NCBI GenBank assembly: GCA_026874595.1
Contig: CM049307.1
Coordinates: 55,695,870-55,759,869, forward strand
DNA from: Sipunculus nudus
Taxonomy: Eukaryota; Annelida; Sipuncula; Golfingiida; Sipunculidae
Direction of reading: 5' to 3'
Length of the DNA stretch: 64,000 bases
Shown: positions 741 to 62,989 of the stretch, piece by piece
Position numbering within the stretch: the first letter of the stretch is position 1
How the letters are laid out: every line of letters begins with the position of its first letter
Program-made: the position numbers and the translations under genes
Notes under the pieces: model-generated
Database searches by the model: none
The model's input: only the letters and a program-made list of their open reading frames with translations
Told to the model about the DNA's origin: nothing

Positions 741-11912
<11,172 letters not shown>

Positions 11913-31950: not shown

Positions 31951-31956
31951 ATATCT

Positions 31957-32300
31957 ATTGTCTAGGGGTAGAGATCTATGGTCTAGGAGTATAGTTCTAT
32001 GGTCTAAGGGTAAAGATCTATAGCCTAGAGGTAGAGATTTATGATCTAGGGGTAGAGATCTATGGTCAAGGGGTAGAGATCTATGGTCTAGTTTTACAGA
32101 TCTATGGTCTAGGGGTAGAGATTTATGGTCTAGTTGTACAGATCTATGGTCTAGGGGTAGAGAGCTATGGTCTAGGGGTAGAGATCTATGGTCTAGGGGT
32201 AGAGATTATGGTCTCAGGGTAGAGATCTATGGTCAGGGATCTATGGTCTAGGGGTAGAGATCTATGGTCTAGGGGTAGAGATCTATGGTCTAGGGGTAGA
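31957..32300. repeat. 21-bp minisatellite, about 16 copies
   Basis: The unit begins GGTCTAGGGGTAGAG and ends ATCTAT, with variants (GTTTTACAG, GTTGTACAG, one short unit). The last unit runs directly into a tRNA-like SINE head beginning with the same words. Confidence 0.92.
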
Positions 32301-32580
32301 GCACAGGACTCAAAGGCAGGAGATAGTGAGTTCAAATCTCCAATGAAGCAGTGAGATTTTTCATGCTTGGTCCCTGTAGTTGGCACTCTGTAGGCTAAAT
32401 GGGAAGGTTCTACTCCATAGCCAAGTTCCACTCACAAATGAGTGCCTCTTTCAGGGGTGCCTTGGTGTGTTTCAGCAAGGAGGCAAATTACACACCCACG
32501 GGCCCCAAGTGTGGTTGTCCTGGGACCTGGTTAACAAGATAAAACTGAAAGGAATTATTTGCTACCGCCCTGTCGAGTAG
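32288..32580 (+). repeat. tRNA-like SINE candidate
   Basis: Begins GGTCTAGGGGTAGAGCACAG, then GGACTCAAAGGC (anticodon-arm-like) and GAGTTCAAATCTC (close to a B box, GGTTCRANTCC). These are spaced as in a tRNA-derived pol III promoter. The 220-bp body continues through ATGCTTGGTCCCTG and GGGGTGCCTTGGTGTGTTTC. A functional tRNA is excluded because the arms do not close into a cloverleaf. No end or target duplication is defined. Confidence 0.5.
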
Positions 32581-32866: not shown

Positions 32867-35800
32867 ATGGACCCCATCATGGAGCTAGAGGAGAAGTTGC
32901 GAGAGGCTGCATCCATCGGCGATGAAGACAGCATAAAAAATCTGGTCCACAAAGGAGTTAATGTCAACTCACAAAACAAAATCAATGGATGGTGAGTGGA
33001 CTTGTAATTCAACTACTCTGGGATGAGAATAACTCTTTGAGTCAATGGTTGTTTAATTTAGCTGACTGTAGGTCATCTGAGCTATTGTTATAATCTATTG
33101 TCCATCTGTCTGTCCTTCCTTCCAACTGTCCATCAGACTGGCATGTTTTGAAACCATTAGATCTACAAATCCAAAATTCTGCATACAGTTACATGTCCTC
33201 AGGTTCTCCATTCAAACCTAAAACTGGGTAACTGCAACTTTGTTCCCTCAAGTGATTGATGAAAAACCTCAATTTTCCATTGAAACTCTGTTGTTACTTT
33301 TCAGGACTACCTAATATCGAAACCACATCTGCTTTTTGTTTGTGCACATGCACCTCAATAACGTTTGGTGGAATATTTCATATTTTGACATCACTTTCAC
33401 TCTTGCTTATAAAAATTGAAATAGCTGCACAATTAGAAAAAAAGTCACAAAGAAATTTCTGATTTTGTGACATTTTCTTGTGACCTTTTCCAACCCATTT
33501 GATTTTCAACATTTATTTGCATGTTTATTAGTAATACAATGCTGTCACTTCCAGTGGCTCACTTTATCTTTCAGAGTGGGGGGGGGGGGGGGAAGGAAGA
33601 CCCAAACACACACACACAAACACAATTATATATATCTTAGCATCTGTATGACATATTTTAAATGTATATACTTAATCACATTTCAGTATATTACAATTAA
33701 GGTTTTAAAAATAAGGTAATTTGTTTCAAACCAGGTTTAGATAAAATTTCATTGGAGGGGGGTGATTTCATTGACCATCTGCCCCCCCCCCCCCCCCCCC
33801 TTGCCAGAAAGTGTAGGGGGGATACTGTGGTCGCTTTTTGTTCGCCAGGGTTTCAAATTCACGATGTTCGCGAAAGTGAATTTATCGCGAAAATAAAACC
33901 TTCGTGAATAAGAGACCCCCTCGTCGAAGGCAATTCAAGGTTGATATTATAAATAATAATTGATCCTATACATGTTATCTTTAACCTAAGATGGTTATCA
34001 TTAATAATCATTATTACATTTTCTGCCAACAATAAACAGTGATTTCTTCTTATGCGACAAAGGGTCCCTGTGCATTTTTTTAAATTTTGTGCACATATTA
34101 CTTTGTATAATTAATTCATAAAATGATCGATATACTCTGTGTAGAATATTGTATGGTAAGATCGTGAAAATTGAACCCTCGCGAAACCGTGAAAAGTTTA
34201 AAATCGCGAAATGTTAACCCTTACGAATATGAAGCCAACCACAGTATATACCCCTATTCACCCCTATATTTATGCCCTTGGTCACTTCTGTGCCTAATGT
34301 ATTTCATCAGGTCTGCTCTCCACTGGGCTGCCAAACGAGGGTACGCCAATATAGCCTACCTGCTGCTACAGAGTGGAGCTGATAAAAACCTACAAAACAA
34401 CAAGGGGGAGACTCCACTGTCTGTGACGTCCGACGAGAAAGTCTTCACCATGTTAGGAGGCCAAGGTGGGTTACATACAGTGATAATGCAGTGGTATAGG
34501 TGTTCAGTATTATTTGTCTATGTAGTTAGTCTGGCAGAATTTATTTATATACAGTTAAACCTGTGTTATGAGACCACTGATGGGACTGGCCAAAAGTGGT
34601 CTTATTTCACAGGTGGTCTTATTTGACAGGCTAGTTATAACCAATGTGAATGCTTCTGGTTCACCCAAGGGTGGTCTTAATAGACTGGTGGTCTTAAAAG
34701 ACAGGAGGTCTTTCAAACAGGTTCCACTGTAACAATATATCAAATGGTGCATGAGGTCAAATATGTTACTAAAAAAATAAGAACAATTTGTATGAACTTG
34801 TACCAGTGATAGAACCTTCTTTGTATACTAGTATATTTGATCTGATCAGTATAGAATTCTTTAAGAGAAGACATTAAGAGTCTGTCAGGGTAATTTTAAG
34901 TAAATGAAATTCAGATGAAATCTCCAGCACCTGCCTTGGTCATAATCAGTTTTTACAATCATTAACAGAGATTACATATACTTCTTGTCACAAAAATGTA
35001 AAAATTAGATGGAAATGTATCAGGTTGCTGAACCTGGACTAGTCAGTAACTTGAACTTTATTCTAGCAGTCAGCCCTTATCGTTGTTGCAGTTGACTCTG
35101 ACCAATTTAAGATAATGATCAGAACCATGGGTACAACAGCCTGGAGCTCCAAACTGTTTTAATCACTTGATTATAGCTGATTTGGAATAAAGAATTACCT
35201 GTTGTAGGAAGCCTGACTTCCATGTCTTCACTCACCTTACCAAAATGTTGGCTGATCACAGCAATTTGTGTTAATTTGGTGATGTTATGATGTTCCCATT
35301 TAGTCTCTTTTATGTGACATATAGTCGTGCCATATATTACTTTGAACAAATGTTCTAGACAGTTTGATAATGACAGGTAATTGTTTAAACATATTACATA
35401 TTCTATATACCATAGAATATATTTGCAGTAATATTGGATAATGGATATTTAAGAATACAGCAGTGTTGCTGACACTTTTTCATCTGCTGCTGAAGGTTCT
35501 TTTTTCACCGTGGTTGCTATTTGGTGTACTGTCTTACATGTGTTTCTCATTGAATTGAAGTGTTTATCTCCAGGGAATATCAATTCTTTGGATGTGCATA
35601 CTACATACATAATCATATATAATCATTTGTGATCATTTGTAAAAAAATGCAGTCAGTATATGTTAAAAAAAGACCAGTTTTCAATATAATGGATTAATCA
35701 GCACAACACTAGAAATTATGACAAGGACTTGTGGTAAACTGTGCTCTGCTTAACTTGACCCACACTCAACTGGAGATACCATAGATGGGCTTTACTGAGA

Positions 35801-38800
35801 TCTAGTAGAAGTTCTGACCCTGTGCTGGAAGACAAAACTTTTTACCAGCCAAGTGAGGAATACACGAAGCCAAAGTTGTTCATTTCATTTTGAGTGACAG
35901 CTCATCGCCCCGGCATCCATTTGAACAGGCCACAGGCTCAGAGAGAATTGCCCCACCGTGGTTTCTAGATGGAGGCTGATTCCTCTCGAGTGTTTGTTGA
36001 CTTGCATTTGGATAGCTGCTGGTCACATCAGCATTTTTTTTCAGTAGACAGGGGCAGGTGCACCACCTGGTGTTTAAGTGCATCATAAAAGGTCAAAGCA
36101 GGTGGCTAGAAAATCAGTGGCTTCTTTAGAAGCGCAAGATTTCCACTGCCTCGGGAGTGTAGTTTGCTTCAGTTTTCATGGGTTATCTTCAAGAGAACTT
36201 CATTTGGGTTATTAATGTCATGGTTTTCATTTCAAATCTGACTGTAAAAATAAAAAAAAAGATCCAAGTCCATATCAGTGTATTATTACCACCACTGAAA
36301 ATGTTACTTTCAGAGTAATTTGGGCATGATTGGGATTAACTCTACAAAAGTTACTGATGTTTGCATTGGTAATCAGACCATACACTTCCTTAATGCAAGC
36401 TGTGAATAAGGAAAACATGATGAGCCATAGGATCTCAGTGGATGGAATCAAGAGGACTCTCTAAACTCTTCAAATGTTGTTTCTTCAACATATTTTAAAA
36501 ACAACTAATTTTAAGCAGACAATTCCATTTTTATTATAATTTAACAATAAGATTTCTAGTGTCTGGATGGTATAAAACTGAACTGAAGGAACAGCAAAAT
36601 GGATTATTACTGGAACTAAGTGTCTATGATATTGACAATTTTGCTGTTTCCCAGGCAAACAATGGTTGTAAGGGCTGGGTATCCATCAGTTTTTTTCAGG
36701 TACAATAAATATTGCAATATACTTAACACAATATCCAATACATTTTGACAATAGGCTTCATTTTTCTTTTTGTATCATTTCTGATTAAAAGCCTTGTGGA
36801 TAAAATAGTTCGTAAACAAATAAACAAGAAAGTAATATTATTCCACCAGTGTCATGGAAAATACCAAGAACTGCATATGCATTCCTTATCCAGTTGATCA
36901 TATGAAAATATGTGATCTTATTTAAGTCTAAGAAGGTCAATTAAAGAAATAAATAGCATCTTAAGCCTAATAAATAATTCAGATTATAATTAGCTTAGGG
37001 TTGTATGGCTTGAATTTATATTTGCTAGCTGTTTTTGCATTTCATCGATATGACGGTACATCATATATAACATACCAGTAACCATTATGATGTAAGGTAT
37101 CGATATGTATTGATATATCAATATATTGATACAGCCCTAATGGTTTTACTTATCAGCTGGTAACATTGATGATTACAGAGTTCTCTGCTTGATTATCAGA
37201 TCTTCCATTTCATAAACAACACTAGATATCTGCATTCCAGGGAATCAAAGGTTCTGCCATGTGGTAGGGGAGGGGGCTCCTATTGTGGAATGCTCCCAAA
37301 CCTGTGTTTGCATTAACTAATTCAGCCCATATTCCAAGGTTCATTTGTGCATAAGTGACTGCACATCAGTGGATATTCCTATATGACGTTCCAAAAATCC
37401 AAATCATATGCTTGATCCACAACAGTATCTTATTCCCAAAATTACTTGAAAATTTCATGAGATTCCATTCATGATCTTGTGAGTTATATTGTGAACAAAC
37501 AAACAGAAGCAAAACACACACGAGTGGGGCTGAACACACGTCCCCTTGGCGGAAGCAACAATAACTTTTACTAGTATGCTGAATAATTTTGTTCCCTTTC
37601 ATCCAGAGGAAGAACTATCTGGCTGACTGATGATCAGAATTTCAATGTGCCATTACTCTTTGAGTAAATACTTACCATTGTATTGACATGTTATGGGGGA
37701 AAAAATATTGTATTGCATTTCATGTAAACCAATTGTATAAATGGTTGTGTTAAAAACATTAAAAATAAAACACTGCCACCTAAACCAGTTCTGCAGTCTG
37801 ACACATGATGTTGACTTCTTGACAGTTAAATAAGGAATAATGGACTTTGAAACCTATACATCTATATAAACCTAGTAAGTTAATTCTGAATAGACTATTA
37901 GTATCAAACTGCACATGGTACAGAAACTTTTCAACCTGTCAACGTGGAAGGTACCTACAGAAATATTGATATCAGCTTTTTGAAGATCTTACATGACATG
38001 AGCAGAAGACTGAAAGATATAAATTTCTTGTTGAAGGTTTTTGCCTTCAGGGAGACTTAGAGAGTCTGTCCCCCCAATTTTAAGCTCAGCTGACTTATAA
38101 GTCATTTGAGCTATAATCATGGTCCTTTGTAGATCTTTGCTTGTCCAGTCGTCCATCCGTTAACAGAGCACGTTTTAAAACCGTTAGCCCTACAATACCA
38201 GAATTTGACATAGAGTTAGATGAACCTAAGTTCTCTTAACAAACCTGAAACTGGGTAACTGTGATTTTGTTGCTTTGAGAAATTAAGGAAAAACCTTTTT
38301 CCATTAAAAACGTATTGTTACTTTTCAAAACTGGCCACTATGAAAACCACTGTTGTTAACCTATTCATATTGGATGTAACTATTCCTGTATATATTTTCC
38401 TACATACATGCATATATATTTCCTATGAAATTAGTCAATACTTTGTAAATCTTTGAAGTTATGGGCCCAAACATATCCCACTTTGTAAAAAATCAGGAAA
38501 TATATTTACTCACTTAACATGATTAATTGTTTAGCTAGAGAGCTTATTTCAAGCATATATCTATATTCAATTTACTTTTTATTGTATACCAGAAATTAGA
38601 TCAAAATTTTGTAAAATTTTTGAGTTATTAGTATAAATGTAAAATTATTACCTTAAAATTTGCCCAAATTTGACGATGGCACTTTTTTTCCTGCCTGTGC
38701 ATTTGCTTTCATTTTCACATGATGGGCAGATAAGGTGTTGAGCTAATAAAATCTTAAATTTGAAAGGAATTGGTGAAAGAGGGTAGCTTTTATTTTAGTT

Positions 38801-41800
38801 TTCATACACCATGTCATGTGATGCAGCCCTCACCTATGTTATGTAACTGCTTCACTCCAGGCATCTCCCTTGATTTGGCTTAGTTGGCTTCCCCTCTGTC
38901 CCCCCCCCCCCCCCTTCATGGACAGGATGCATAAACTAGATGAATGTAACAATTTTGAATTTTCTATATTCAGTTCATTCTCATTCTAGACTATTGCAAC
39001 ATTTTGAATTGTGTATTGTATCACAAGGGGTTACAATGATGTGCACATTTAATTGTGTCCTCGGAGTGATGTTTTGCTGTTTAAGTGTGGATGTTCATAA
39101 TATGAGAGATTCCTTACTTCAGAAAAGTAAAAACTTGGGTTCTTTTTAAACATGTGTAAAATTGAATATTAATTTGAATATTAAATTATAGTTGAGACAT
39201 TCATTAGCAAAATTATATTGTTTTTCCCTCATCCAACCAGCAGTATGTATACCTGATTTGGAAAGGAAATTTTTAATCAAATTTACTGATCTTTTATCAA
39301 GTCAGTAAAATTAAGCATGTACTGAAAACTCCAATGTACAAAACTATTTTTGGAATAATGATTAAAAAAATAATCTCCAAGATAACATATTGTGACAATA
39401 TGTTTTAAGTAATATTTTCTTTTGAAAAATCTTTTAAACTCAGTTTTAACATTTTATGATTAAAAAAATAATAAAATATATATGTATGTATAATCTGACT
39501 CGATGTTACAAATAAATAATGATGCAACTTATAATTTTCAAATAACTTATATTTTTTTACGTAGTCTATAAAAGCGCACAGTCAACACAACCACTAGGAT
39601 TTGATATAAATATTCTCAGAATCAATTTCAGCTGAACCCAGTGACCCACAGGTCTCTTGTTTTTCCTAAAATATTTTATATAGAAATAAATCTGTCAACC
39701 CCTTAAAGGGTCCTTTCACCACAGAACCACAGAGAGAGGCTTCACAACACAGTTAAATGACATAACTTGATGTACCTTAATGTTACTGAGAAAGAAGAGA
39801 ATGCGCACAAGCTTTCCAGTTTAAAGGGGATTGAAGCCTTGTAATTTGATACCCACTTAATGAATGTCACACCAAAAGAGTCGGCTAGGTGCATTCAAAA
39901 TCTTCTTCTGAAGCTTTGAAGTCCATTTATTTCAAGTCAAGATTGCAGTAAGAAAATGAAGAAAAATGGATCAGGGGTCATGTTATGTAGGTTCATGTAT
40001 GGTTCAGGAATCTGGTGCCACATTCAGACAGTTGAAATGTTTTATTATCATTCTAAAATTCCTTTATGAACCTTTAAAATATGGTACACTAGTACTTCCT
40101 GTTAAAAGCCTCAGATCTCTCTTTATATGTAAAATTCAGTCAGTGACATAATTCACTGAAGGAATCCGAGCACATACTTTTGCCAAATATAAATGACTTC
40201 AAGTTGCAGTAAGCTCTCTGTGTATTTTGCAACAGAGGTATTTATTCTTTGATATGTTATTTGATTAAAACAGTGGTGCAGTTGACTGAAAGGTTCAAAT
40301 GCAGAGAAACTGAGGAAAGGCCAGTCTCATACACATATATTCTTAATTTAAAGTCGCACCTTTTTGTCACATCTTCAGATTACTAGGAAAATTTTTTCAG
40401 TAAAAATAATAATAATAATTATTATTAAAATCATTATAAAAAATAATTTAACAAATATATGTTAAAGTGAGGAAGTTGAACTGAGGAAACAGGCCTAATT
40501 GCCTAGCAACCATTATAACATCACAATCATAATTATCTCCTGGGTGTAAATATATGTCAAGTTCAGACCAAAATGCTGCATCTGCACACTAAGTTGTAAT
40601 ATCTATATAGTTCCTATATATGTATGGGAAAAATGGAAAAGCTGTTGAATCTATTTAAATTCCTAATAATCGATAAATGGACTTTAGGATTAATTCACAT
40701 TTTGAAACCAGTAGATTTTCTTGCATGCAACATGTTCTGTATTCAGTATGTTTTCATCACAGATATAAAATTTGTGTCGTTACTATGGTAATTAGAGTAT
40801 TTGTCAGTTATCTTTTAATTTTATTTTTATCTTCTATCATGCATGAAATTAAACTAATTGCACACATTATTAAACCAAATATAAAAAATTCAAGGTGAGC
40901 ATATAATCGGGAGATAGCATGACATTGAGTCCTGAACTTTTGGTACTAAGAGTTTAAAATGTCCACCTTGAAATTTTATTTTATTTCTCCCTAATTAATT
41001 TTACTTTTTAGTCAATTTATTTTTTATTCAATAGGCTCCAAAGTAGCTGGGCATAAATGTTTCATGATAAAATATAAATTTTTCAGGGATTACAACAAGT
41101 GCAGAAAATAGCATTATGAGATATTGTGCACAATACAAGCAAAAACATGTTGTTATAAAATACGCATGAGGTTATCATTCATTAGTTATTAATTATCAGG
41201 ATTGGCAGTGATATAATTCATCATTAATAACACGTAGGTGACAAGTTGGTAACACGCGCGACTGAGCTTTCCTTTGTTGTTGTATAAAGTTTACCCGGTG
41301 CGGGTGAATGCCCTTGGCGGTCAGGGTTCTCAGAAGCTCATTAAACCAGTGGCGCCTCATAGTCTGAGGTCTGTGAGTCTGCGCAGACGGATGCGCGGTG
41401 GTCGTCTGGCCGAGGAAAGTGTGTCAAGTCGTCTGGGCCTGGAAAAGCTTGCCCAACAGGGGCTGGTGGGCTGTTGCTGTCAGCAAAGCCACCATGCAGG
41501 CCCACGACATTTTAAAGAGGGACTTGGATGACAGTGACGCCAGCGAGCATGACTTGTCTGGGTCATCTTCTAGGAATAATAGTCCCCCAAACAAGCGGCC
41601 TAAGTTGGAGCGCACTTTCGTGCCCGCCTGGCTTGGCCGCTACCAGTGGCTCCGTTACGACAATGACCGTAACATGATGTTCTGTGAACTGTGCGTGAAA
41701 CACCGCAAATCTAATGCCTTTACGGAAGGCTGTCAAAATTTCAGAAGAGACAATTTAAACAAACATATCAACACGCAAGACCACCGGGCTGCCGTGGAAC

Positions 41801-44800
41801 AGGACACTGTACTGGTTATATCAGCTGCACCATCATTGCCCCCATTATCGCCCGCTCTGCCTACCTCCACTCTTGGTACCATGCCTCTACCTCTGACGAA
41901 TGGTGTGGTTCATCTTGGTAAGACCCCTTTCTGCTTTGACAAAAGTCAGCCTGGTGATGTATGCCAGGGATTTTTGTGGATGTCTGCTGCTGAAATAGTA
42001 TTTTGTAAATGTGCATATCCAGGACAAGAGGCAACTGTTGACACTTGTTACAAGGTGTTCAAGTGTGTTTAAGTGCCATTGACGTTATCATTTCAGGTTC
42101 AGATGAGTACTAGGATGAAATAGTAAATTATATTAATCCGCTAATGATACTATAAGTGTTAATGTAAAGAAGTTTTTAGAATTCCATTTGAAACAGTTTG
42201 AAACTTATTAAAAGTTGTGAAAATGTGTTTAATTAAAATTAACATAAAACATTGATAACACCTAATATTCTTGAGTACTTGAACTACTTCTTTAAAATAT
42301 TAAAGTAATGTCAAAACTCTAAAAATTGATATTTTTAAATTATTACTGTAAAAATAATATATAAAACTAATAAATGTGGTTACAGATTTGTTTGTATTAA
42401 AATACTTTTACATGCAAATACTTTAACAACATTTGTAGAAATTTCTCTTGAGAATATGCTGCTCAAGATTTTTCAAACATTGTAAGGTGAAGAAATTGAA
42501 GGGGAAAAAATCAGGAAAAAAATTTAAAACTTCTCCCTCTTGAATAACCTAATTTGCAGCAAAATTCAGAGGCTTTTAATTATAGAAATATGAATCACAT
42601 TACCCAGTCCAGATATTCAAACTTTAAGGAAAAGTATTAAACTGCATTAAACTTTATTCATACCATATATTTTTCAGCAGGGGATGTCACAAAGTTTATG
42701 ACTGAAATGTATTATAATTACTGAAGCCTTTTGTGTGTTTTGAAAATTTGATAAGGGACAACATTTTAATTTTCTAAAAAAGCAACTGATTTTCCCACTG
42801 CCTGCTTTGGCTATTTATGATACACTTAGACACCAGGTGGTGGTTCGTTGTCTGCTGATAAAAAAAGTGTTTGATGTGACAAGCAGGCAAACAGATGCCA
42901 GTTAACAGACACTCGACAGGCATTCTGGCTCCACCCATAGCTGCGCTTCAAGTGGCGCTTGATGGCAGTTCATGGTTGAATTTTTATTGCTACCTCTGCA
43001 TCATCGACCGAGTCGATTATGACATTACGACTATGTTAGCGTAACAATATATCTGTTGTCTGCAAAACTGAAACCAGCCAGCGAGGTGTGCACAGAGCCT
43101 TTGTTGTTACATTTCATTTGAATTACAGCTCACTGGCCGGGCATCCTATGTGCCCAAGGCCCTAAGCAAACCATGTGCGGGGTTATTCTCTCTGAGCCTG
43201 TGGCCAGTTCAGACGGTTGCCGGGGCGATGAGCGGTCACTTAAAATGAAATGAACAACACTGGCTCCTTGTATTCCTTGCTTTGCTGGTAAACTGTTTTG
43301 TCTTCCAGCACAGGACCAATCTGATTGGACAAAAATGCAGTGTTCCCCTCTGGTGTAGCGATTCAGGACACTAGGTCAAAACGAACAGCGCTTACAATAT
43401 AGGTAGTTGGCCTTTAGGTAAAGTGCTGTGTAAAGAGCGTACTCACAAGTTCTCAGTCAGGGATCTTTTCTGTAAAAGCAGTTATTTATTTAGTGTGGTT
43501 AATAGTTCCATGTGAAACAAGGCATCCATTGTCACTTGCAAGATGGTGCTGCTGTTTCCCCACTGAACAGTTACTTTTCTTACCAGTGTACTAGAGCAAT
43601 AAAAGCACAGTTTGGAATTGATGTTATCCCTGTGATGATGCTCAAAACTGTGTAATAAACAGATCAAAGGATTTGATCCATACTTATGATGACCCTAGAA
43701 TCCGTGCAGAATAAACAGCTGCTGAAATAATGGTAGCACATCACCCTTGCCTAAAAGAAACCATTTACCACAGATACTTTTAACTCAAGTTTGGCTGCAC
43801 AGAGCACATCACTCTAATCGATAGTAATTAAGACGGAAGAAACCTGGGTAAAACCTACTTCACCCAGATTAGGTTATGGGTAAAACCTATGCAAACCCTG
43901 TTCAGGAGTAGAACTTTTCGCACAATTTTTGGACAGAAAACCTGCCTGAAACTGAATTGGTTTACAACCTTTTTTGATTGATCAGTTAAGCAATGAAATT
44001 ATTAGCATTCAGTACTAAAAGTTGTCAGTCTAATAATAGCAGAAGACCTGTTTGATTATTGTGCCTTGTAACAAGCATACATGCATCCTTTAATTAGTTC
44101 ATTTACCATGTTAATAGTTCATGAAATAGTAAGCAGACTGGCCAGATTCCTGTTATCGTGATACCATTATATGCTTATTTGTCTACAGTTTTGGAACACA
44201 CACATGCCCTTTTAGGGTTAATACAAAAAGATTATGACATGACCAGGGTCTTTCTGTGTTCAGAAAATCATATATTTTCAAGGATAACATTTATCTTAAT
44301 ATGGGTGTGTTCAAGATGCCAGTGGTGAACAAACTGACAGAATCACATTCTCTGAAAGTATGTAGCAATATTTTTGCCCACTGAGTATTGGATAGATGCA
44401 ATATGAATGTTCTTTTGTAAGTTCAAGAAAAATTTTTGCACAAAGACACAATTAAGATAAATAAATAGCTTCATATATTTGTTTCTATGTCACGCTGAGT
44501 GTGGTTAATCTTGCAGGTGATCCCACGCTACAGAATGGGGACATCAAAACAACACTGCCAATCACACCTAACTACCTGGCCAGTCCACCATTTCCATACT
44601 TATCACAGCAGAACCTGACTCCTCATATTGATGTGCCAATGAATCTGAAGGTGACACCCCCTGACAGCCGTGATGGACTTATCCGGTCACCTGACAGACA
44701 ATCCCCACCAAAGCAGGACAACCATGCCTCATCCAGTGTTGACAGCCCCAAGTCTGCCAGCCACTCACCAGGTGTCTCTAGCAGTCCCTTGCCTCACATG

Positions 44801-46605
44801 TTACAGACTGCCTCACAGCATGGTCTAGATGAAAACGGTGGGTGTAATGTGTTTTTTATTTATCATTCATATCCCTACTTGCTTTAACAATTTCTTATTC
44901 TGCCAACAATTTCAACTTAATGTCTGTCTGTTCGTCACCCAATCTGAATAAGTGCATGCAGCTCAAGTTCTGTACTCATGTACTTGGTTTAGGATCTCTC
45001 TCCGCCATATTACCTCAGAAAAGCCATTTTAAAGTTCTTGGGATTCATAGAACACCGTACCATAGTCAGAAATACAGTTTGCTCCAGCAAATTGACCATC
45101 AGGTTTTGGTGGATGTCCTTACCCTATCCTCTGTTATAATATTTTCCTCAAGGCCCAGATGTTGCATTTTTTATAAAGTTTAAATGGCTTTAATCCAGAA
45201 CCTGTAATTGCAAAAAGAAGAAAGGGAAATTGAACTTTGCTTGCACAACCGCCTATTTAACTGTTATAAATGCATGGTGAATATGGAATTTTATGTACAG
45301 TATGGAAGTACAGTGGAACCCTACAATTATGACCACCTTGGGGACTGGCCAAAGTGGTCATAATTTGGGGGTGGTCGTATTTGTGAAACTTAAATTACCT
45401 GGATCATATATTTGGGGCCAAGAAAAGTGGTTTTAATTGTGGGGGTGGTCGCAATTGCAGGGTGGTCGCTAGTGGTGGGCTGATCGAGTTTTATCGAAAG
45501 TCAGTTGGTCTGCTGCCACTTTCAAGCGCTCGATTACCAAAGGCAATGATCGATTACATCATAATCATGATAATGAGTCTGTGTTCCCAAATGACTTCCT
45601 TATGTTACTGAGTATGACACGGTAGATGCGAGAACGGAGGATTTAATAAACCTCTGTGAACTGGCAGGGAGCTGCAGAATTAGCGGGGAGTTTTGTAACG
45701 AGATGTACCTTGCACAATATGGGCTGTATGGCGTTAAAATGCTCCATAAATTATCTGGGTCTATGCAGCAAGTAGATGTCCTGGATTGTCGTTTAATTCT
45801 TGATTATTATAAATAATTAAAATGAAACTTTTAAAAGCATATTTTACCAATAACAGGCAAATATGAAAAAAGGCAAAAACTTCTTTTTTTTGCATTTGGT
45901 TAAGAAAGTACAGTTTCACAGATAACTGCAAGTATCTTTATATTTGCCTGATCCAATTATTAATCAATCATCAATTAGTTTGCTCAAACCGATGATCAAT
46001 TATGAAAAATGAACCAACTCCCACCACTAGTGGTCGCAAGGCCAGGTTCAACTGTACATGAACGACGGAAAATTTCTATAAACAAAATTAAACCAAGGCT
46101 TGGAATCAAAACTGGAATACCATGTGAATGGTATTTCAAGGGGTTTATCATATTGTTGGGGAAGAATTGAAATCCATCAAAGTGCATGGTAGCGCACCCA
46201 AAACTGGGTATATATCTTGTTAACCGTAGTATTGTACATCATAATTTCTGGTTTATCTTTACACAGTTTCTTATCTAGATATATTTTCTTTCAGAATTAG
46301 TATTGAAGATCAGAGCAGCAAACACAGAGGAGACAGACTTCATTGAAGTGGAGTTAGACAAAGGGCACCTCACTTTTGATAATTTACTGACACTTATGTG
46401 CACAGAGCTCAAAGTGGACAGAAAGCTAGTGCAAAAAGTTCGCAAGCTTCCAGATACAATACTTCGCAAAGACAAAGATGTAAAACGTTTGCGTGATTTT
46501 CAGGAGCTCGAGCTGGTTCTGAGTTCTAGAGCTGTGATAGAAAACCTGAGAACTCAGGCCACTCAAGGAATCTCTCCGCGTAATGTTGGAGTGGTGCTAT
46601 ACTGA
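32867..46605 (+). CDS. ANKRD40: ANKRD40, ankyrin-repeat protein, four coding exons
   Basis: Exons 32867-32991, 34311-34465, 44517-44837 and 46295-46605, all with GT-AG borders and matching phases, give 303 residues (human about 368). Residues 9-41 and 42-74 form two ankyrin repeats (EKLREAASIGDEDSIKNLV; SALHWAAKRGYANIAYLLLQ). A proline-rich middle follows and carries LPITPNYLASPPFPYL, matching the vertebrate LPFVPNYLANPAFPF block. The C-terminal domain from residue 201 has ELVLKIR, DFIEVEL, KVRKLPDTILRKDKDVKRL and DFQELELVL, close to vertebrate ANKRD40. The start follows an AG acceptor (32858-32859), so an upstream noncoding exon is expected. Molecular function is poorly known. The 10-kb second intron holds an alternative zinc-finger exon and many repeats. 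Confidence 0.95.
33057..33470 (-). repeat. fragment of the AACAAGGGACC/TCAGCTGAGC element
   Basis: Reverse-oriented closing end (AGCTGACTGTAGGTCATCTG) followed by GTCTGTCC repeats and module sequence (AAACCTAAAACTGGGTAAC). Truncated; in ANKRD40 intron 1. Confidence 0.7.
33577..33592. repeat. poly(G) run, with a poly(C) run at 33782-33800
   Basis: A G run and a C run about 190 bp apart in ANKRD40 intron 1. Transcribed RNA could pair them. Confidence 0.9.
33822..34249. mobile_element. inverted-repeat element with CGCGAA-rich ends
   Basis: The left end ATACTGTGGTCGCTTTTTGT is matched by the reverse complement of the right end (TATACTGTGGTTGGCTTCAT). Both arms carry TTCGCGA and GGGTTCAA-like blocks. 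About 430 bp, noncoding, in ANKRD40 intron 1; it ends about 60 bp before exon 2. A similar end occurs at about 63503. Confidence 0.7.
34550..34731. mobile_element. palindromic small element, family A
   Basis: Ends TACAGTTAAACCTGTGTTAT and CAGGTTCCACTGTA, with repeated GGTGGTCTTA blocks inverted against AAGTGGTCTTATTT. Related in plan to the TACAGTGGAACC elements at 45309 and 58286. Confidence 0.65.
35805..36085 (-). repeat. dispersed repeat, minus-oriented copy
   Basis: Reverse complement of 42826-43330 with interruptions. Shared words are CACCAGGTGGTG, TTCTCTCTGAGCCTGTGGCC, GCCGGGGCGATGAGC and GTTTTGTCTTCCAGCACAGG. The two copies lie in opposite orientation in ANKRD40 intron 2, on either side of the zinc-finger exon. 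Confidence 0.8.
36662..37147. mobile_element. hAT-like nonautonomous element with 8-bp target duplication
   Basis: Ends AAGGGCTGGGTATC and GATACAGCCCTA are inverted, flanked by ATGGTTGT (36662-36669) and ATGGTTTT (37140-37147), a 7/8 match. An 8-bp duplication is the hAT signature. The interior is AT-rich with ATCGATATG-type palindromes and no ORF. Confidence 0.6.
37270..37640. repeat. dispersed repeat, copy 1
   Basis: Shares CCCATATTCCAAGGTTCATTT, TGTGCATAAG and TTTCATGAGATTC with 48300-48535 in the same orientation. Confidence 0.7.
38090..39668 (-). repeat. interspersed element copy 3, reverse orientation, single module
   Basis: Begins with the inverted closing end (AGCTCAGCTGACTTATAAGT) and ends with the inverted opening end (GACCCACAGGTCTCTTGTTT). 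It carries only one 600-bp module plus the body segment also present at 9180-9930 of copy 1, including a poly(C) run (38900-38914) that corresponds to the G run near 9764. Confidence 0.8.
41240..41493 (+). promoter_or_regulatory. CpG-containing promoter/5' leader of the zinc-finger exon
   Basis: A GC- and CpG-richer island (ACACGCGCGACTGAGC, GCGCAGACGGATGCGCGG) inside an AT-rich intron, directly upstream of a strong start context (GCCACCATGC). Upstream ATGs exist: an overlapping uORF (41274-41531) and an in-frame ATG at 41398. They suggest either translational control or that the transcription start lies downstream of them. Confidence 0.5.
41494..46605 (+). CDS. TTF/BED-like zinc-finger exon predicted to splice to ANKRD40 exons 3-4
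   Basis: First exon 41494-41917 starts at a near-perfect Kozak ATG and ends CTTG|GTAAGA in phase 1, the phase of ANKRD40 exon 2, so joining to 44517-44837 and 46295-46605 keeps frame (351 residues). Residues 1-40 are acidic then basic (NKRPKLE, a possible nuclear signal). Residues 42-100 hold a TTF-type zinc finger: FVPAWLGRYQWLRYD, C64-x2-C67, NFRRDNLNKH with H91, and H97. Residues 110-141 are Pro/Ser-rich. From 142 the protein would share the ANKRD40 middle and C-terminal domain and lack the ankyrin repeats. TTF/BED fingers are common in hAT-type transposases and proteins derived from them, so the exon may be domesticated. The exon itself is convincing; the splice to ANKRD40 is inferred. 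A separate nested gene is the alternative. Confidence 0.6.
42826..43330 (+). repeat. dispersed repeat, plus-oriented copy
   Basis: Longer partner of 35805-36085, with about 200 bp of extra sequence in the middle (about 42930-43160). Confidence 0.8.
45309..46056. mobile_element. palindromic TACAGTGGAACC element, interrupted
   Basis: Left end TACAGTGGAACCCTACAATT; right end GCCAGGTTCAACTGTA after the insertion. GTGGTCGTAATT-type blocks run in both orientations. A full-length relative lies at 58286-58466. It is split by a hAT-like element at 45470. In ANKRD40 intron 3. Confidence 0.75.
45462..46037. mobile_element. hAT-like nonautonomous element with exact 8-bp target duplication
   Basis: GTGGTCGC occurs at 45462-45469 and 46030-46037. 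Between them the element (45470-46029, 560 bp) has inverted ends TAGTGGTGGG and CCCACCACTA, as in hAT elements. The interior has GATCGATTACAT-type palindromes and no transposase. Confidence 0.85.
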
Positions 46606-49600
46606 GACCTGCTGTAGTAAGGTTATGCAAGCCAGTGTTGGTATGCAACTAGCGGTGTCAATTTCAAGTCTCATCACCAGGGATTCTTTGTTCGTGTGTG
46701 TGTGTGAGGTATTTTGTCAGTGGTTGTCTTTGTTAATTAAATGCTGATATGTGGTGCAGAACTTTATCAGATACAGCAATATGAGAAATGGTTGGATGGC
46801 CATACTGTTTGATTGGTCTTTTAGTTTGTTCTCAAACATTGTATATGATTATCATTTGAAAATTATTGATAGGTATATGAAGAAGGCAGCCAATGTCTTA
46901 GGGGAAGATGTCGCGTATCTCTATTTGATCAGCCCCTTGATCCTGTGAATCAAATATTTGCAGAGCACAAGAGTTTTGCCAAGTATCGTGGATTTATATC
47001 CCTACATTGGTGATGAAGGCCATTACATTTTATTTATTTATTTAAAAAATGTTCACTGCAACATTTTATAGGGCAGCCTGCACCAGACTTTACCTCTGTG
47101 GTTAGTAGAGCCCTGTGAGTGTGATAAGCCACATGCAGCAAATGTTATGGGCTACATGAAAGATCAGTGCTATACATAAAAGCAAGGATGGGTAATTGTA
47201 GTGATATCAGAAGATAGAGAATACAGTGAGACGGAATTATAAAGTACATTGTAGACCTAGCACTGCAGCCTGATGCTGATCCTGGTAGGTTCCAACAAAG
47301 ATGTTTTGAGAACACTGAAAGCTGAAGTTTATGCAAATTCAAGAGCACAGAGTTCCATCATATCTTTAGTGTACTTTAAAGGTCCGAGGACAAACCAGAA
47401 TTTGCCTTCATGTATTATATCATGGCAAAAATCAACTGGGTCATGTCAGTCATGTTGGGTTAAATATGGGGCATTGACAGTAACAGGCCTGTATTGGGGG
47501 ATATACTTGAGAAGTCTTCCATCACTTATTATTTTGTCAGGGATGCCAAGGATCTGCTGCTGCAGTAGTTTAGTGAAGGCTTTCTGTGTAAACTGCTGCT
47601 TTATATAACGCCATATAAAACATGTTTTATACTTCATTATTTCACACGTGTAAAAAAACTTCAATTTTATAAAAGAGAATTGGGAGTTTACAGCTGATGG
47701 TTGTAGTAAGAAATGGTTGTCTGTGTTAAGTTAAAAGGATGTTGGTCATGTTGTTAAAATTTGGTAGCTCATGACAATGTCATGCACAGACACAACCCAC
47801 AGGAATTTTAATAAGATTGGCAGTCATATAACATTTAAATTGATGATAATAACAATAATGGCTGTAATCTGTTGTGAAACAGATTTAAGTGATAAATCAA
47901 GCTATATATGGCAGCCATAGTTTCAGATGTGAGTGGGGTTATGAAAAAAACGGGGCAAATATGGTACAAGTAACCCTCCTGACCTTAGACTGGCGTTGTC
48001 CATTCTTCCATTTCCAGTGAAGTTGTTTATTCTTAATAAATGTAGATGAAATTTAAAGTACAGTGAAGCCCTAAACATGGTACTGACATTGGCAGTGTAG
48101 ACAGAATGTTATGAGGATTTGGCCTAAGGGTTCCACCAAGAAAAGTGAAATTTCAAATTTGCATGAACGACACAAAAATGTACAACAGTTCTGGAAAAAG
48201 TGCATTTGACAAATTTTATTCCATTCTTTAAATTCACAGCTATTTTTGAAGGCCCAATAACAAAATTAAACCATGGGTAACTAGAAATATGCATTCTAAG
48301 GAATGCAAGTGTCCACCACCTGGGGGTCCCAAACCAGTGCTTGCATTCACTTATTAGGCCCATATTCCCAGGTTCATTTGTGCATAAGAGACTCCAATGG
48401 CTTCAATTTTCACAGGCCTCTTCCCAAAATGCCCTAAAAATTTCATGAGATTCTGTTCATGATTGTGTTAGTGATGATGTGAACAAACACAAATTGGGAT
48501 TAATACATACCCTCCTGGCCGAAAAAAATAGGAATGAAATTTCGGTAGAAACACTTTTTTTGTGGATGTGGATGTGTGGATTAATTATCAAATCTTGTAT
48601 AGAGTTTATCTAAACTGCTTTTTTCCCATACAAATAGGTGGTTACTAATACTAGAAAACTTCACAGGGCTTCATAGAACAATGCCAAAGGTACACTTCAC
48701 CCACCCAGTTATGTTGTCTTAAAGATTTGTGTGATTGCATGAAGTTGTGTTCAGATTAACCTGGTACAAGTGTAAATCTATATAAAGAATATTGGTAACA
48801 GATCTTTTTTTAAACCATTTTGTTGTGGATCATGAATGTAAAACACTGGTTGATTACTCCCATGCACCTGTTTCATTTATATTTCTAAAGAAAAGCACAA
48901 GTCCATCAATTTTTCCCAGACTTGGGAGCATATATTAGGTTTATTTATGTTTAAGCTTTATGATTTAGTCTGTATTATATTATATTTTGCAGCTGATGTT
49001 TGTATAAGGGTCTGTTATAGATAAGAAATGACTTTAATGTGATGGCTCCCATAAATTGTGTGTATAAAGTATGATGCATTTGTTAATGATTCACATTTAT
49101 AGCATGTTCAGCTCCTACAACAATCACACAAATCACAGGAGCGAGTGGTTAATATGGCATGCACAGTTCATGTGGAGTATGTATGGGTTGTGTGAAATTT
49201 GATAAGTTGGGGCTCTGTAGAGCACATACCTGTACCAAGGTAAAAAAAACCCTATTGAGTCTCCCCTTTTATATGCAGTTCTACACTAGAATAAGTAGTA
49301 TTTAAAGGGGTCTTCCTTGCTCATATCCCACTCTCCTGCAGAGCTTTGCTGAATCAGGAACATTTGTTAATACATGCTAACAGACAAACAAACCGACACA
49401 GGTAAAAACATAACCACTTTGGTGGGATGACAGGAGTTTTGATAAGAACTTGGATATTGGAAAGGTGTATTTTGAATTTTGATTGATTAATTATGTTGCT
49501 ACATCACACTTTTCTACCAATGGATGTATTAATTTTTTTTTTTCCAGATAGTAAAAAAAAATGTGTCAAATTACCCTTTATTTCTCGAGAATGGAAATCA

Positions 49601-51810
49601 CAGCTGTGATAGACGGCACATACACAACCTACGAAATCTATTATGCTTTCTTTCAGATGTTCTCATTCCATAGATGGTACACGCAACTCTTATTAAAACA
49701 AAAGTCTGTGATGTCACAAAATATTTAGAATAATCATTCATGAAGAGACGCAGAACATTTGTATTTATCATTTGCAATTACAGCTTTTTATATTTTTATA
49801 CAATGAATTCTGTGTTATCAAGAAAAATGTTTTTACCACCATGTGTATCTGAATGCAAGACACAAAACCCTTTTGGAGTATGGTATGCAGTGTCACAAAG
49901 ATTTTTTTCCCCATAAACAGAACACCAAAGGATTTATGCTTGTAATAGGCCACATATTTTTTGCTGTTTCAGGGTTATATCAGCTCTCATTTTACTGGTT
50001 ATATTGGTACTATGTACTCTTACTAGCTTTGATTGTTTTGCTTCTTGTTCAGTTTATAGGAATATGCTACTTATAAATATATGCCAGTGAGATATAAATT
50101 ATACACACAACTATGTATTCATGTACAGTCACGGCCAGGTAGCTGCTTGTCAGAGTTCTCTTTTTAAGTATTGTTCGTAGAATGTACAGAGTAGCATACT
50201 GTATGTTACACCTTTTTATTTCCTGTAGGCAGCATGTGGCATTGAGACCTCTTTGGAGAGACTATAAAAATTTCTTCATATATACGGCATGTTTTATATT
50301 CACGTGGAGTTTGACCTCATGTATCATGTTGCATTCTGCTATACTCACTTTTAAGCGGGTTTTCTTTCATCCCATTTCATCTGTGTTGCATGATATTTTC
50401 TCCAGAGCAGCCCTTGATGGTATAGTGTTATCTATTTATCCAGTGTTACAACATTCACAGTCAGAATTAGGGTGTAAACGAACACTTAAAAATCATGAAT
50501 ATAATTTCACTTAAAAGTAAGCATACACTTAATTGCTCTGCAGTCTTTTTCTTACTCCTGTACATACACAAACATAAAACAGTTGTTCTTCATTTCTCTT
50601 TTGTGTGTTTATGGAAGACATGAATTTGTGTTTTACTTTTATATGATCATGTACAAACACCTCTCACAGACTTCCGTTTTGTAAACACACAAACGTCAAA
50701 ACACGTCTTTCATAAGCTCCCCAGCTTGTTCACGCATTCACACAAACTCATGTCAAAACAGAAATCGTCCTGAAAGTTCCATTGTATTTATTTCTGCGCG
50801 CACACACAGAAATATAAAAATGCAAATCCTTCACATCTCATTTGTTCAAACAAGCACATTTTTCAATCTCTTTCACGGAAACACACACACACACAGGGAG
50901 AGTGTCATAGGTCAGTTTGTATGTGTTAGACAACTTGAGATGTAACACCAAAAAGTCGTTAAATCAAATTTGATCCAGTGAGATTACAAGGAAGTGGCTA
51001 GTGTCTACGACATGGTATTTGCTTTGATCACTGTTAGTTTGATGATTTTCACTCACTTATATAAAACGTGCTCTGAGTGGTATAAGCTTGTTAAATGATC
51101 TGGGGACACTGCAAGACTTTGCTGTGTTTGTCTTTTGTTCGAATGAAATGCATCAATGAGACTTCAGTCGAGACTTGTAATGAGCTGTCGAATTAAGTCA
51201 CAATTTGGAGGGACATTCAGTCAGTCCTGGCCCTATTGACTTTCACTTAATCGGAATTTAATGACGTAAAAGTTATTAAAAACAGTACCTAGGATTAGAC
51301 AGGGTTTATCGTCAGCTCCTGTAATGAGTAGGATTTCTGAACGTCACATCCAGTTGACGCTGGCGGAAGAACCTTCAAAAATATGAACAGGTGTCGCATG
51401 TAATACGTTCTGTTCACCTGTCCTCATCTCATCTTACATTACAGTCTATACATCCAAATCTGTGTATCACTTTGTCCTTCTGTTTGTTATGACGATACAA
51501 TCTTAATTGTTGATGCAGGCCTTTAAAGACTTGTTTGGTAATTAAACATGCAAATAAATGTAATGTAGGGGGAAATTCTCGCTTTGACAAATGGGTAGCT
51601 ACAGGATCACCATGGACATTTGCAAACATTTGTAAAATAATAAAAAAAAAAAAGTGTAACGAAATACATGATGTTACGTTTCTAGGTGTTCTTGACTTGA
51701 ATGGCGAGGAATTTGATTTGAGCATACGCATTACTTATGTATATGTTTGGTGAGTATGCCTGGAAATTCTCTGAATACCATTTGCTTTTGAAGAGTTAAA
51801 ACAATTTAAT
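46606..51810. other. ANKRD40 3' UTR and downstream intergenic DNA
   Basis: After the ANKRD40 stop the sequence is AT-rich, with possible polyadenylation signals (for example AATAAA near 48035), a dispersed repeat at 48300-48535 and short CA runs at about 50885. ORFs to about 110 codons lack domain features and look fortuitous. The 3' end of the transcript cannot be placed. Confidence 0.5.
48300..48535. repeat. dispersed repeat, copy 2
   Basis: Second copy of the 37.3-kb repeat, downstream of ANKRD40. Confidence 0.7.
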
Positions 51811-51814
51811 TTTT

Positions 51815-53523
51815 ATGCCCCCGCCACAAAGTGTGGGGGCATATAGTTTTACCCATGTCCGTCCTTCCGTCATTCCGAAATCAAACAGTTGTACGGACTT
51901 TTTTTCGCAATGCCTGCAGATATTGGCCTGATTTTTGGTGTGTGGGCAGATAATGACCAGTTACAGATCGAGTTCGGGTTTCGTCCCGGTTGACCTATTT
52001 TGACCGTTTTACGGCTCCTAAACTTAGAAAATTTCATGAAAAATAGAAATTTTCATGGCAAATACACGTACGGACTTTTTTTGCAGTGCCTGCAGATATT
52101 GGCCTGATCTTTGGTGTGTAGGCAGATAATGACCAGTTACAGATCGAGTTCGCGTTTCGTCCCAGTTGACCTAATTTTGACCGTTTTACGGCTCCTGAAC
52201 AGAGAAAATTTCATGAAAAATAGAAACTTTCATGACAAATACACATGTACGGACTTTTTTTCGCAATGCTTGCAGATATTGGCCTGATGTTTGGTGTGTA
52301 GGCAGATAATGACCAGTTACAGATCGAGTTCGCGTTTCTTACCGGTTGACCTACTTTTGAACGTTTTATGCCTCCTTAACTTAGAAAATTTCATGAAAAA
52401 TAGAAATTTTCATGACAAATACACATGTACGGACTTTTTTTTTGCAGTGCCTGCAAATATTGGCCTGATTTTTGGTGTGTGGGCAGATATAGACCAGTTA
52501 CAGATCGAGTTCGCGTTTCGTCCGGGTTGACCTACTTTTGACCGTTTTACGGCTCCTGAACATAGAAAATTTCATGAAAAATATGAACTTTCATGACAAA
52601 TACACATGTACGGACTTTTTTTCGCAATGCCTGCAGATATTGGCCTGATTTTTTGTTTGTTGGCAGATATTGACCAGTTACCGATCGAGTTAGCGTTTCG
52701 TCTCAGTTGACCTACCCTTGACCGTTTTACGGCTCCTTAACATAGAAAATATTTCATGAAAAATAGAAATTTTCATGACAAATACACATGTACGGATTTA
52801 TTTTTTGCAATACCTGCAGATATTGGCCTGATTTTTGGTGTGTGGGCAGATAATGACTAGTTACAGACCAAGTTCAAGTTTTGTCCCAGTTGACCTGCTT
52901 TTGACTGTTTGATGATGCTCTAACATAGAAAATTTCATTAAAAAGTGCACATGTACAGACTTTTTTTCGCAGTGCCTGCAGATACGGGCCTGATTTTTGG
53001 TGTGTAGGCCAATAATGACCAGACCGATCGAGTTCTTGTTTTGTCCCAGTTGACCTACTTTTGACCATTTGACTGCTCCTGAACATAGAAAGTTTCATGA
53101 AAAATAGAATTTTTCATAACAAATGCATATGTACTGACTTTTTTTCCTCAATGCCTGCAGATACCACCCTGATTTTATATGTATGGGCAGATAATGACAG
53201 TTACAGATCGAGTTCGCGTTTTGTCCTGGTTGACCTACTTTTGATTGTTTTACGGCTCCTAAACATAGAAAATTTCATGAAAGACAGAAATTTTTATGGA
53301 AAATGCACATGTATGGACTTTTTTTCACAATGCCTGCAGATACTGGCCTGATTTTTGGTGTGTTGCTTGATAATGACCCGTTACAGATCGAGTTTGCATT
53401 ATGCCCTTGTTGACCTACTTTTGACCATACGACACCTCCTGAACTTAAAAAAATTTCAAAATTTAACAAATGTTTCTCATTTGCCCCAGGCGGGGGCTAT
53501 CGTGTCGTTCCGACACATCTAGT
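51815..53523. repeat. GC-ended element with eight to nine tandem units of about 180 bp
   Basis: Opens ATGCCCCCGCCACAAAGTGT GGGGGC and closes CCAGGCGGGGGCTATCGTGT, so the ends are inverted CCCCCGCC/GGCGGGGG. Inside are repeats containing TGCCTGCAGATATTGGCCTG, ACCAGTTACAGATCGAGTTC, CCGTTTTACGGCTCCT and AAATTTCATGAAAAATAGAA. Later units diverge more. Short ORFs within reflect the repeat. Confidence 0.9.
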
Positions 53524-54779
53524 TGAATATGTAATTTAAGTACATATCCCTGTCATTTTAGAAAATGTTTACAGAATATTATCTTTGAAACGTTCATATA
53601 ACAGGTAAAATCATGCAAAAAAAGCTTTAAAAAAGAATTATGAGCTGCAAGTTTTGACGAACCCCGGTATTAGGAAAACCCAAGCAAGATTCATAATGTC
53701 ATTTTAGGATGTTTTATATCGTGGAAAAAATAATGAAAATGCTGATCTTCAAAAAATGTAAAGCCCATTCCTGACATATATACCTTTCGTTCTGTAGGAA
53801 TTAATGCAACCAAGTAAGATTGCTGTGCAAATCTCTAACATATTATATATATGTGTGTGGTTGTGTGTGTGTGTGTAGTTAGCTTGATATAAATATATAT
53901 CCCCAGGTTGAAGGTGCAGAGATGTTTGCCAGGACTTCAGTACCGTTACCCCGCGCTGTAGAAACTTGCAAGCGAGATAAAGTCATTGTTTTATTTTTCA
54001 AATTTACTTCTTCAAAATAGTTTCTTAGTTTAATTCGTTTCCTTAAATTGTATGTGTATGAATGGTGCAGTTATATAGAACTTCTTCACCGTGCCAATAC
54101 TTTTTGAAAAGAACTAACTGAGCTGTTGAAACAACCATGACAGGGAAATCCCCCGTGACTAAAAAATTCCGGATCTCCTCAAACGCTTAGTATTTCTGAC
54201 ACTGCCAGCCCAAAATTTTCAGGGAAGAATAAAAACATGTATTACTAGATTTAAGTCGTTTCTAAATTTTGCCTGTGACGTCACACTTTGCACCAGCCAA
54301 TTACATCAGGGCCCATGCAGTCTGTGGTTTGGATCCATGCACGTTCCACCAAGTGCTACTATAGGTTTCCTAAGGAGTCTTGGTTTACCTATCTACAGAC
54401 AAATCAAAATGCCGAAGGCCAAAGACTTGTCAGTGATAGTGATATTGAGAGTTTGCAAGAAGATGTAAAGATGCAATAAAAAATGTTTAAAACTATGCCA
54501 TGTTACCTCTTAGTAGATACTATAGTAAAGTATCACCATATTAATGGAAATGCGGGAAGTGGATGAAAATGAAGCTTTAAATACTTTCGGCGAAGTATCC
54601 TTTGTTTTACAACTAATTACAGATTTGGCCATGTATTCTATTCTAGATTACCAGCTTAGGTATTCATATACAAATTCACTAAATAAAACCAACATGTATG
54701 TGATGTATTTGCAGAAATGATCAAAAATCGTGTGTCGCATCAACTGGATCTCCATTGATTTACTGAACACATAAATTCT
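53524..54779. other. intergenic stretch without recognised gene
   Basis: AT-rich with a TG run (about 53845-53875). A plus-strand ORF at 54288-54479 has a plausible amino-acid mix (WIHARSTKCYYRFPKESW) but no recognised family, splice context or conservation evidence. Confidence 0.4.
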
Positions 54780-55274
54780 CTGTTGTCATGCCATTTAACC
54801 TGAAAATTCTCATAATATCGCCCAGGTTGCTGCGCCATTCGCATCGATTTTGTTGGCAAATACGGCAATCGGACAGTCCTTGGCAATGCCTGCGAATTCA
54901 AAGGGGAATGGTAAATTACAAAAAAATCGTCATCTAGCAAACAAAACGACGTGACATAGTAATAATAACAAGGCAATATAGTAACATGAATATGGCATGA
55001 ATATTACATTGAAATTAATTAACTCATTTGTTTTGTATGTGTTTTACCCATTTCATTTTACTGAAAATTATTCATCTTTCAGACATATTTAGCTTCATGA
55101 GAGAACTTACAAAGAATTGGGCCAACTACAGTTCAATAGCGCCAATTTAATTTGGTGATCTGATTCAGAGTAGCTGTTTGGTCAAAGAATTAATGATTGC
55201 ATATTTGGTCTCCATTTTGACTTTTTGTACATAATTGTAAGAGTTTATACATAATTATGTATGTATGTATACAT

Positions 55275-55330
55275 ATATATATATATAAATATATATATAT
55301 ATTTATATATATATATATATATATAATATA
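55275..55330. repeat. (TA)n-rich microsatellite
   Basis: TA dinucleotides with few interruptions, directly before a 22-23 bp minisatellite. Confidence 0.85.
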
Positions 55331-55475
55331 GATATGCAAGTCTATAAAATATACATATGCAAGTTTATAAAATATAGATAAGAAAGCCTATAAAATATAG
55401 ATATGCAAGTATATAAAATATAGATATGCAAGTCTATAAAATATAGATATGCAAGTATATAAAATATAGATAGGC
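55331..55475. repeat. 22-23 bp minisatellite, about six to seven copies
   Basis: Unit GATATGCAAGTCTATAAAAT plus ATA, with AGT/TCT variants. In a pseudogene region. Confidence 0.9.
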
Positions 55476-56598
55476 CATACATGCGGACCATGCAGGTCTG
55501 TAGCTAACATTTTAAGGTTCGTCCTCCGTATGGTTAAACAGGACTGTTATATATATGAGCGGTCAGCAAGACAGGAAAGTATACATAAGCATGAGTGAGA
55601 ATAAACCTTACCGTTAGTTCCGCGGCTGACTCTTTTAGCTTCTCTTTCTCCGTTACGTAAACCAGGAAAACGATACCGTTCGCTTCGGATGTGTATCTTT
55701 TCCACTCACGACGGGCTGCATGTAAAGAACAAAATGAAAATTCTCAATAAAACACACACATACATGTATCAGAAAACATCTGCCTTTAAAACAGAAAATC
55801 AGGCGAAAAGATTTCTTTAATGAATATTGAACACTTAAAGAACAAAGTGTCTTTCTTTTAAAAACCCACTTGGTTCCATCTGTTCAAGTTTAAATAGGGC
55901 AGAGGATATTTTTATTTACGAGAGAACATCTAACTACACTATAGAATTTGTACAATAATGCTTATGCATATATACAAAGTCCCTATGGTTGGCATGTTTA
56001 ACTTCTCGTAACTTGTTAAGTAGTCGGAAAAAATCCATCACACAAAAAAGAGAAGAAATAAGTATTACAGAATATGCTATGGATATATACATTTGATGGA
56101 AATAACAAGCAGTTTTCTTAATATTTATGATAAACTTAAGAAATACTATGGAACTTTAGATGTTTAAGACATGTTCAAATATTTACAATATATTTATACC
56201 AGCCGTTGTTTGATATTAGCATTTATCTTATAAATGTTAATACTTTTATATAACTCTGGTTCAAATGAGCAAACTACCGTCTATACCATATACATGTCCG
56301 CCAGTATCATACGTGGTGAAAGTCTTCCCTTCAATTTGCAACGACTACGTATTTGTTGAAAAAGCAATGGAATGGAAACAAATACGAAAATTCAGATTTT
56401 ATGAAAGATAAGGCAAGCGCGTGGAAAATATCGTTCAGTATGTATAGCATATAAATATATTTTCCATATAAAACAGATATAAGCAACACACACCAAATCA
56501 CATAATGTTCTATCTCTGTCACCATGTTATATGACGTCAACACTTCCATCCCGACATGGTTTTTAACTAGCAAAATAGCTATTGAACTCTTGAAAGGA

Positions 56599-59801: not shown

Positions 59802-62989
<3,188 letters not shown>

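Follow-up and report, generated by a model that had tools for sequence, protein, structure and literature searches.

The locus raises the question of how a zinc-finger exon in the second intron of an ankyrin-repeat gene is used: as an alternative first coding exon of that gene, as a gene of its own, or in some other way. The window, i.e. the whole stretch of 64 kb that was analysed, corresponds to C2:55,695,870-55,759,869 of a genome of 1.43 Gb in 153 contigs. From the sequence, we consider it an even call whether the ankyrin gene uses the finger exon as an alternative coding start. The features on which the argument turns are collected in Table 1.

Table 1. Coordinates of the ankyrin gene, the intronic finger exon and neighbouring features (window positions)
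Feature	Position	Strand	Remarks
Ankyrin gene e1, first coding exon	32867-32991	+	ATG at 32867
Ankyrin gene e2	34311-34465	+	phase-1 donor; finger exon would replace e1 and e2
CpG-rich putative promoter/5' UTR of finger exon	41233-41493	+	CpG list, motifs
Zinc-finger exon	41494-41917	+	141 codons and one base, phase-1 donor; in ankyrin-gene intron 2 (34466-44516)
PF25431 zf-C17orf113 finger	41641-41805	+	C-x2-C and H-x5-H intact
In-frame extension to stop	41918-42072	+	intron if spliced, protein end if unspliced
High-copy repeat, ~670 bp	42772-43441	.	between finger exon and e3
Ankyrin gene e3	44517-44837	+	phase 1 at both ends
Ankyrin gene e4	46295-46605	+	C-terminal part and stop

The ankyrin gene comprises four coding exons on the + strand (32867-46605, e1 to e4) with a frame of 303 aa that ends in a TGA stop codon. 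Its N-terminal repeats match Ank_2 of the Pfam database with an E-value of 1.1e-12; ankyrin repeats alone lie above cut-off in this protein, and the C-terminal part is without a model match. The name ANKRD40, given in the initial annotation, is kept here as a tentative label that does not come from Pfam, and the ANKRD40 C-terminal domain is a putative one. All four exons are CpG-poor, with observed/expected ratios of 0.48, 0.47, 0.21 and 0.50 for e1 to e4. A genome search with the ankyrin protein, in which the best 130 of 500 candidates were scored, gave at least 122 matches. Four of these are the exons in the window and 118 fall within query residues 5-103, i.e. the ankyrin part; e3 and e4 had self-matches only. 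Among solved structures, exon 4 matched dynein regulatory complex subunit 4 (E 0.0087) and troponin C (E 0.65-1.2), both taken as chance matches. Upstream of e1, an acceptor candidate before 32860 (-0.5 bits) would make an additional 5' UTR exon possible. About 0.6 kb 5' of the first coding exon there is also a 21-bp minisatellite of 17 copies (31953-32301).

The finger exon begins with an acidic, serine-rich part, followed by the basic stretch KRPK (residues 34-37), the finger itself and a proline-rich tail reaching to the donor. The initial annotation had spoken of a TTF/BED-like finger. An intact zinc finger is indeed encoded, but it is better stated as PF25431 zf-C17orf113, which it matches with an E-value of 5.3e-20 and 71.5 bits against a curated Pfam cut-off of 29.5 bits, whereas no BED profile was listed for the exon even at E<=10. 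The PF25431 match is far beyond chance. In a genome-wide search with this family, the window finger stands at the top of at least 49 matches listed at E<=0.01 (73.4 bits), 42 of which exceed the cut-off. All four metal ligands, intact in the window finger, are kept in 19 of 21 aligned fingers as judged by eye, these fingers having been taken from 21 of 30 fetched PF25431 loci. The finger exon had no relative among solved structures at E<=10, and none was found in the prokaryote and viral contigs scanned. The product had also been called nuclear-looking, a label that KRPK makes fair as far as a motif can.

The genome provides a large family for comparison. Finger DNA had no second match in the 1.43 Gb, and the finger protein gave 51 matches at E<=1, the self-match included; identity in the remaining 50 is 24-43%. 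The 30 fetched loci, of which 27 were inspected, comprise sequence ending 1.5 kb after the finger. Near-identical ORFs are formed by L037 with L038, L040, L044, L048 and L053, and by L051 with L035 and L036; in these two groups as well as in L033, L049 and L054, the sequence after the finger looks hAT-like. When L030, L033, L037, L039, L049 and L054 were compared with Pfam up to 1.5 kb past the finger, the finger was the only match. At C12:74.89-74.90 Mb, the loci L027, L028 and L029 belong to open frames of 1098 aa, with two listed PF25431 fingers, and of 633 aa, with one. Of these frames, stretches of 588 and 563 aa were scanned with Pfam and gave no transposase match, and the loci possibly represent a host gene or a pair of them. 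In the tree of the 21 fingers, the window finger groups with 12 others, including the three C12 fingers; most forks of the tree are open, so that it does not decide on the origin of the window finger.

Exon capture from a transposon, as suggested by the initial annotation, found no backing in these searches. In addition to the missing second copy, the family ORFs gave no indication of a larger element: 15 of them, taken from the 30 loci and ending 1.5 kb after the finger, were compared with the whole window, and 11 of the 15 matched, exclusively at 41467-41847, with no family ORF sequence elsewhere in the 64 kb. As to a flanking inverted repeat, the best 22-mer is no better than chance, being reached by 37 of 100 shuffles. 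A recent transposon insertion of the finger exon was rejected because no second DNA copy was found in the genome and the other protein matches are as distant as given above. The finger family is shared with transposon-like genes, and a capture at this locus, if any, would be old and traceless in the searches run.

Other parts of the window hold repetitive and coding-like sequence as well. On the - strand, 18439-19898 contains part of a retrotransposon-like integrase (an rve match with E 8e-06 that stays below the cut-off), after which an open frame of 397 aa in another frame carries an OTU-like cysteine protease domain (E 1e-08) preceded by a weak Tf2-1 SH3 match. A tandem array with a 180-bp unit and 8.6 copies extends over 51890-53426, and its translation shares words, by eye, with the open-frame tails of L040 and L053. 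At 3670-4814 on the - strand, codon usage pointed to coding-like stretches that are interrupted by stops.

With regard to the joint itself, the claim of the initial annotation was borne out: the donor after 41917 is in phase 1 like that of ankyrin exon 2, and splicing to 44517 would be in frame. Finger exon, e3 and e4 together encode 351 aa and read to the normal stop of the ankyrin gene. Since the donors of the finger exon, e2 and e3 are all in phase 1, the finger exon could also be joined directly to e4 in frame. A phase match alone has a chance of 1 in 3. By a weight matrix, the donors of the finger exon and e3 score 3.4 and 3.6 bits, those of e1 and e2 6.3 and 5.8 bits, and the e3 acceptor is weak (0.9 bits). 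Only 1.53% of the GTs in the window reach the score of the finger donor; when the bases of the 579-base ORF are shuffled, 42% of the shuffles yield a donor of at least 3.4 bits. Possible partners were compared behind 109 acceptors in 42,000-60,000 that score at least 0.5 bits and leave no stop at the joint. The longest phase-1 frames are those of e3 (122 codons) and e4 (102 codons), followed by 78, 62 and 59 codons. Nine ORFs of this genome (5452 codons), several of them transposon-like, served to train a codon-usage scan for segments above 22 bits, which is partly GC-driven. On the + strand beyond 35 kb it picked out e3, e4, the finger ORF together with a frame overlapping it, and a GA simple repeat, and nothing else. 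The proposed exchange of the ankyrin repeats for the finger would be in frame, with e3 as the best downstream partner found; an unspliced rival also fits.

Several other arrangements were rejected. Insertion of the finger exon, from ATG to donor, between e2 and e3 breaks the frame, and no phase-1-compatible acceptor in 41200-41494 scores above -2.4 bits. A second exon in the GC-rich sequence at 42.8-43.4 kb was dismissed, as this is the high-copy repeat of Table 1, for which at least 40 further copies with 84-87% identity were found on 14 contigs among the matches listed (best 40 of 4923 candidates scored). Retrocopies were of no use as evidence of splicing, since genome searches with the finger DNA and the ankyrin protein gave no spliced retrocopy with the finger-exon junction, a result that counts against the alternative first exon.

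The 5' side of the exon is marked by a block of CpGs, of which 4 are located in 40400-41232, 35 in 41233-41897 and 2 in 41898-42845. The drop in density, from 35 CpGs within 665 bases to 2 within 948, comes about 20 bases before the finger donor. The observed/expected ratio of the finger exon is 0.74, above that of the CpG-poor ankyrin exons (0.21-0.50), which fits a start site. In the oyster, DNA methylation is described as lying mostly within genes, with CpG islands on some predicted promoters and first exons (PMC3985014, passages on this topic), a pattern by which the CpG block at the finger exon likewise fits a start site. The exon had been called CpG-rich, and by these counts it is; this richness is not specific within the 64 kb, since 14 other listed 500-bp windows hold 20-30 CpGs and the one at 41251 is second with 28.

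The block contains a TATAAA at 41283 and two ATGs ahead of the start, at 41308 and 41391; from the latter, a frame of 46 codons is open that is out of frame with the finger exon and overlaps its start. This second ATG would speak against an alternative first exon, as it would hinder translation if transcription begins before it. It would be avoided by a later transcription start or by an acceptor before 41484, where an acceptor-like site scores 0.6 bits, near the value of the e3 acceptor. The start context, earlier described as optimal, is not quite so: gccaccATGc has C, not G, at position +4. Within the supposed 5' UTR, an out-of-frame ORF on the + strand (41274-41528) is coding-like in its codon usage (24.7 bits); as a coding frame it was rejected because it has no Pfam match.

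If the finger exon is an alternative first coding exon, transcription would start in the CpG-rich block at about 41.24-41.48 kb, and splicing would join the end of the exon at 41917 to e3 at 44517. By its reading frame, the product would carry the PF25431 finger and the basic KRPK in place of the ankyrin repeats and keep the C-terminal part. This finger form would likely bring the binding partner of the C-terminal part to nuclear DNA, or else compete with the ankyrin form. That a single gene uses two promoters, one for an ankyrin form and one for a nuclear form with the PF25431 finger, both sharing the C-terminal part, is a tentative proposal, and we see it as falling somewhat short of an even chance.

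Beyond the donor, the frame of the finger exon continues for 51 codons to a stop at 42072, so that 192 aa are encoded from the ATG at 41494. Past the donor, 50 open codons occur in 2.9% of base shuffles, and a 51-codon opening follows 170 of 8000 overlapping intron starts and 26 of 2404 GC-matched intron starts. With a chance of about 1-3%, this opening favours an independent, unspliced gene nested in the ankyrin intron with its own promoter and poly(A) site. AATAAA/ATTAAA hexamers follow the stop at 42207, 42232, 42299, 42369, 42396, 42636 and 42646, though they are common in AT-rich DNA, and in the C12 relatives L028 and L029 the last finger is also located near the end of the open frame. 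However, the CpGs cease ahead of the donor and not at the stop codon, and the 155 bases of the extension contain none. The codon score per codon is still mildly positive past the donor (0.16), compared with 0.11 in the finger, 0.23 in the linker and 0.23-0.27 in e1 to e4, which speaks against the alternative first exon. Past the donor, period-3 asymmetry does not reach significance (P 0.24), in contrast to the linker before it (P 0.002), but this test is weak and does not decide: it also misses exon 3 (P 0.24) and picks out the supposed 5' UTR at 41313-41493 (P 0.0075). Such a nested gene, which would be an ordinary intronic zinc-finger gene, appears unlikely, if by no means negligible.

The exon may also be the first of another transcript with unrecognised later exons, or may follow an upstream non-coding exon under the ankyrin promoter. 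The acceptor-like site before 41484 agrees with splicing of this kind, and short exons would escape both the codon-usage and the acceptor scans. Yet, once e3 and e4 are set aside, none of the acceptors compared up to 60 kb opens a phase-1 frame of more than 78 codons, the + strand has no further coding-like segment above the threshold, and the CpG block would be left without explanation; we regard this alternative as distinctly improbable. A relic without function, left by a domesticated or transposon gene and open by chance, would have parallels in the broken family copies of this genome (L031, L032, L043), but the frame and the metal ligands are intact and no PF25431 match listed in the genome scores higher, and a relic is accordingly very improbable in our judgement.

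Should the finger exon indeed be joined to e3 as an alternative first coding exon, a little-studied gene would alternate between an ankyrin adaptor and a product that likely binds DNA, and the binding sites of the finger would reveal what the C-terminal part serves. Should the two promoters exist, the intronic finger exon would, through the choice of promoter, make a DNA-bound regulator out of an adaptor, and a finger type shared with transposon-like genes would have been joined to an invertebrate host gene. The term 'C17orf113' was not found in the literature searched, and no finger-ANKRD40 fusion is named in the surveyed titles of the literature mentioning ANKRD40. The phrase 'domain-containing protein 40' is absent from the top literature matches of a combined-term search. 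Promoter choice that swaps N-terminal domains is a known arrangement; the pairing of this finger with the domains of the ankyrin gene would be new as far as searched.

ANKRD40CL is a C-terminal-only relative of ANKRD40. The finger form would resemble it in having the C-terminal part without ankyrin repeats, but unlike in ANKRD40CL, the repeats would be swapped for the finger exon within one gene and not lost in a duplicate. With ZNF862, whose ZnF_TTF fingers we assume to belong to PF25431, the window finger, for which this family was computed, would have the finger family in common. ZNF862 combines ZnF_TTF fingers with a hAT dimerization domain, as described in the passage on this protein in PMC8856651, whereas neither this domain nor other transposase sequence was found at the window locus. 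The CGGBP and ZBED proteins are described as DNA-binding proteins from hAT domestication with a zf-BED finger and, in the CGGBPs, also a Hermes DNA-binding domain (PMC8097297); the window finger differs from them in being PF25431, with no BED profile listed. Host-transposase fusion genes include KRABINER, SETMAR and CSB-PGBD3, and a model has been put forward in which a transposon inserts near a host transcript and is then exonized via splicing (sections of PMC12062965, citing Cosby et al. 2021). Unlike these fusions, the window finger is without transposase, terminal repeats or sister copies, and the putative joint, as an alternative first exon, would leave out the host N-terminal domain. As the transposon origin examined here was not borne out, the locus is not classed as a host-transposase fusion. 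What it would share with KRABINER, SETMAR and CSB-PGBD3 is the splicing of host exons to a type of DNA-binding domain found in transposon-derived proteins.
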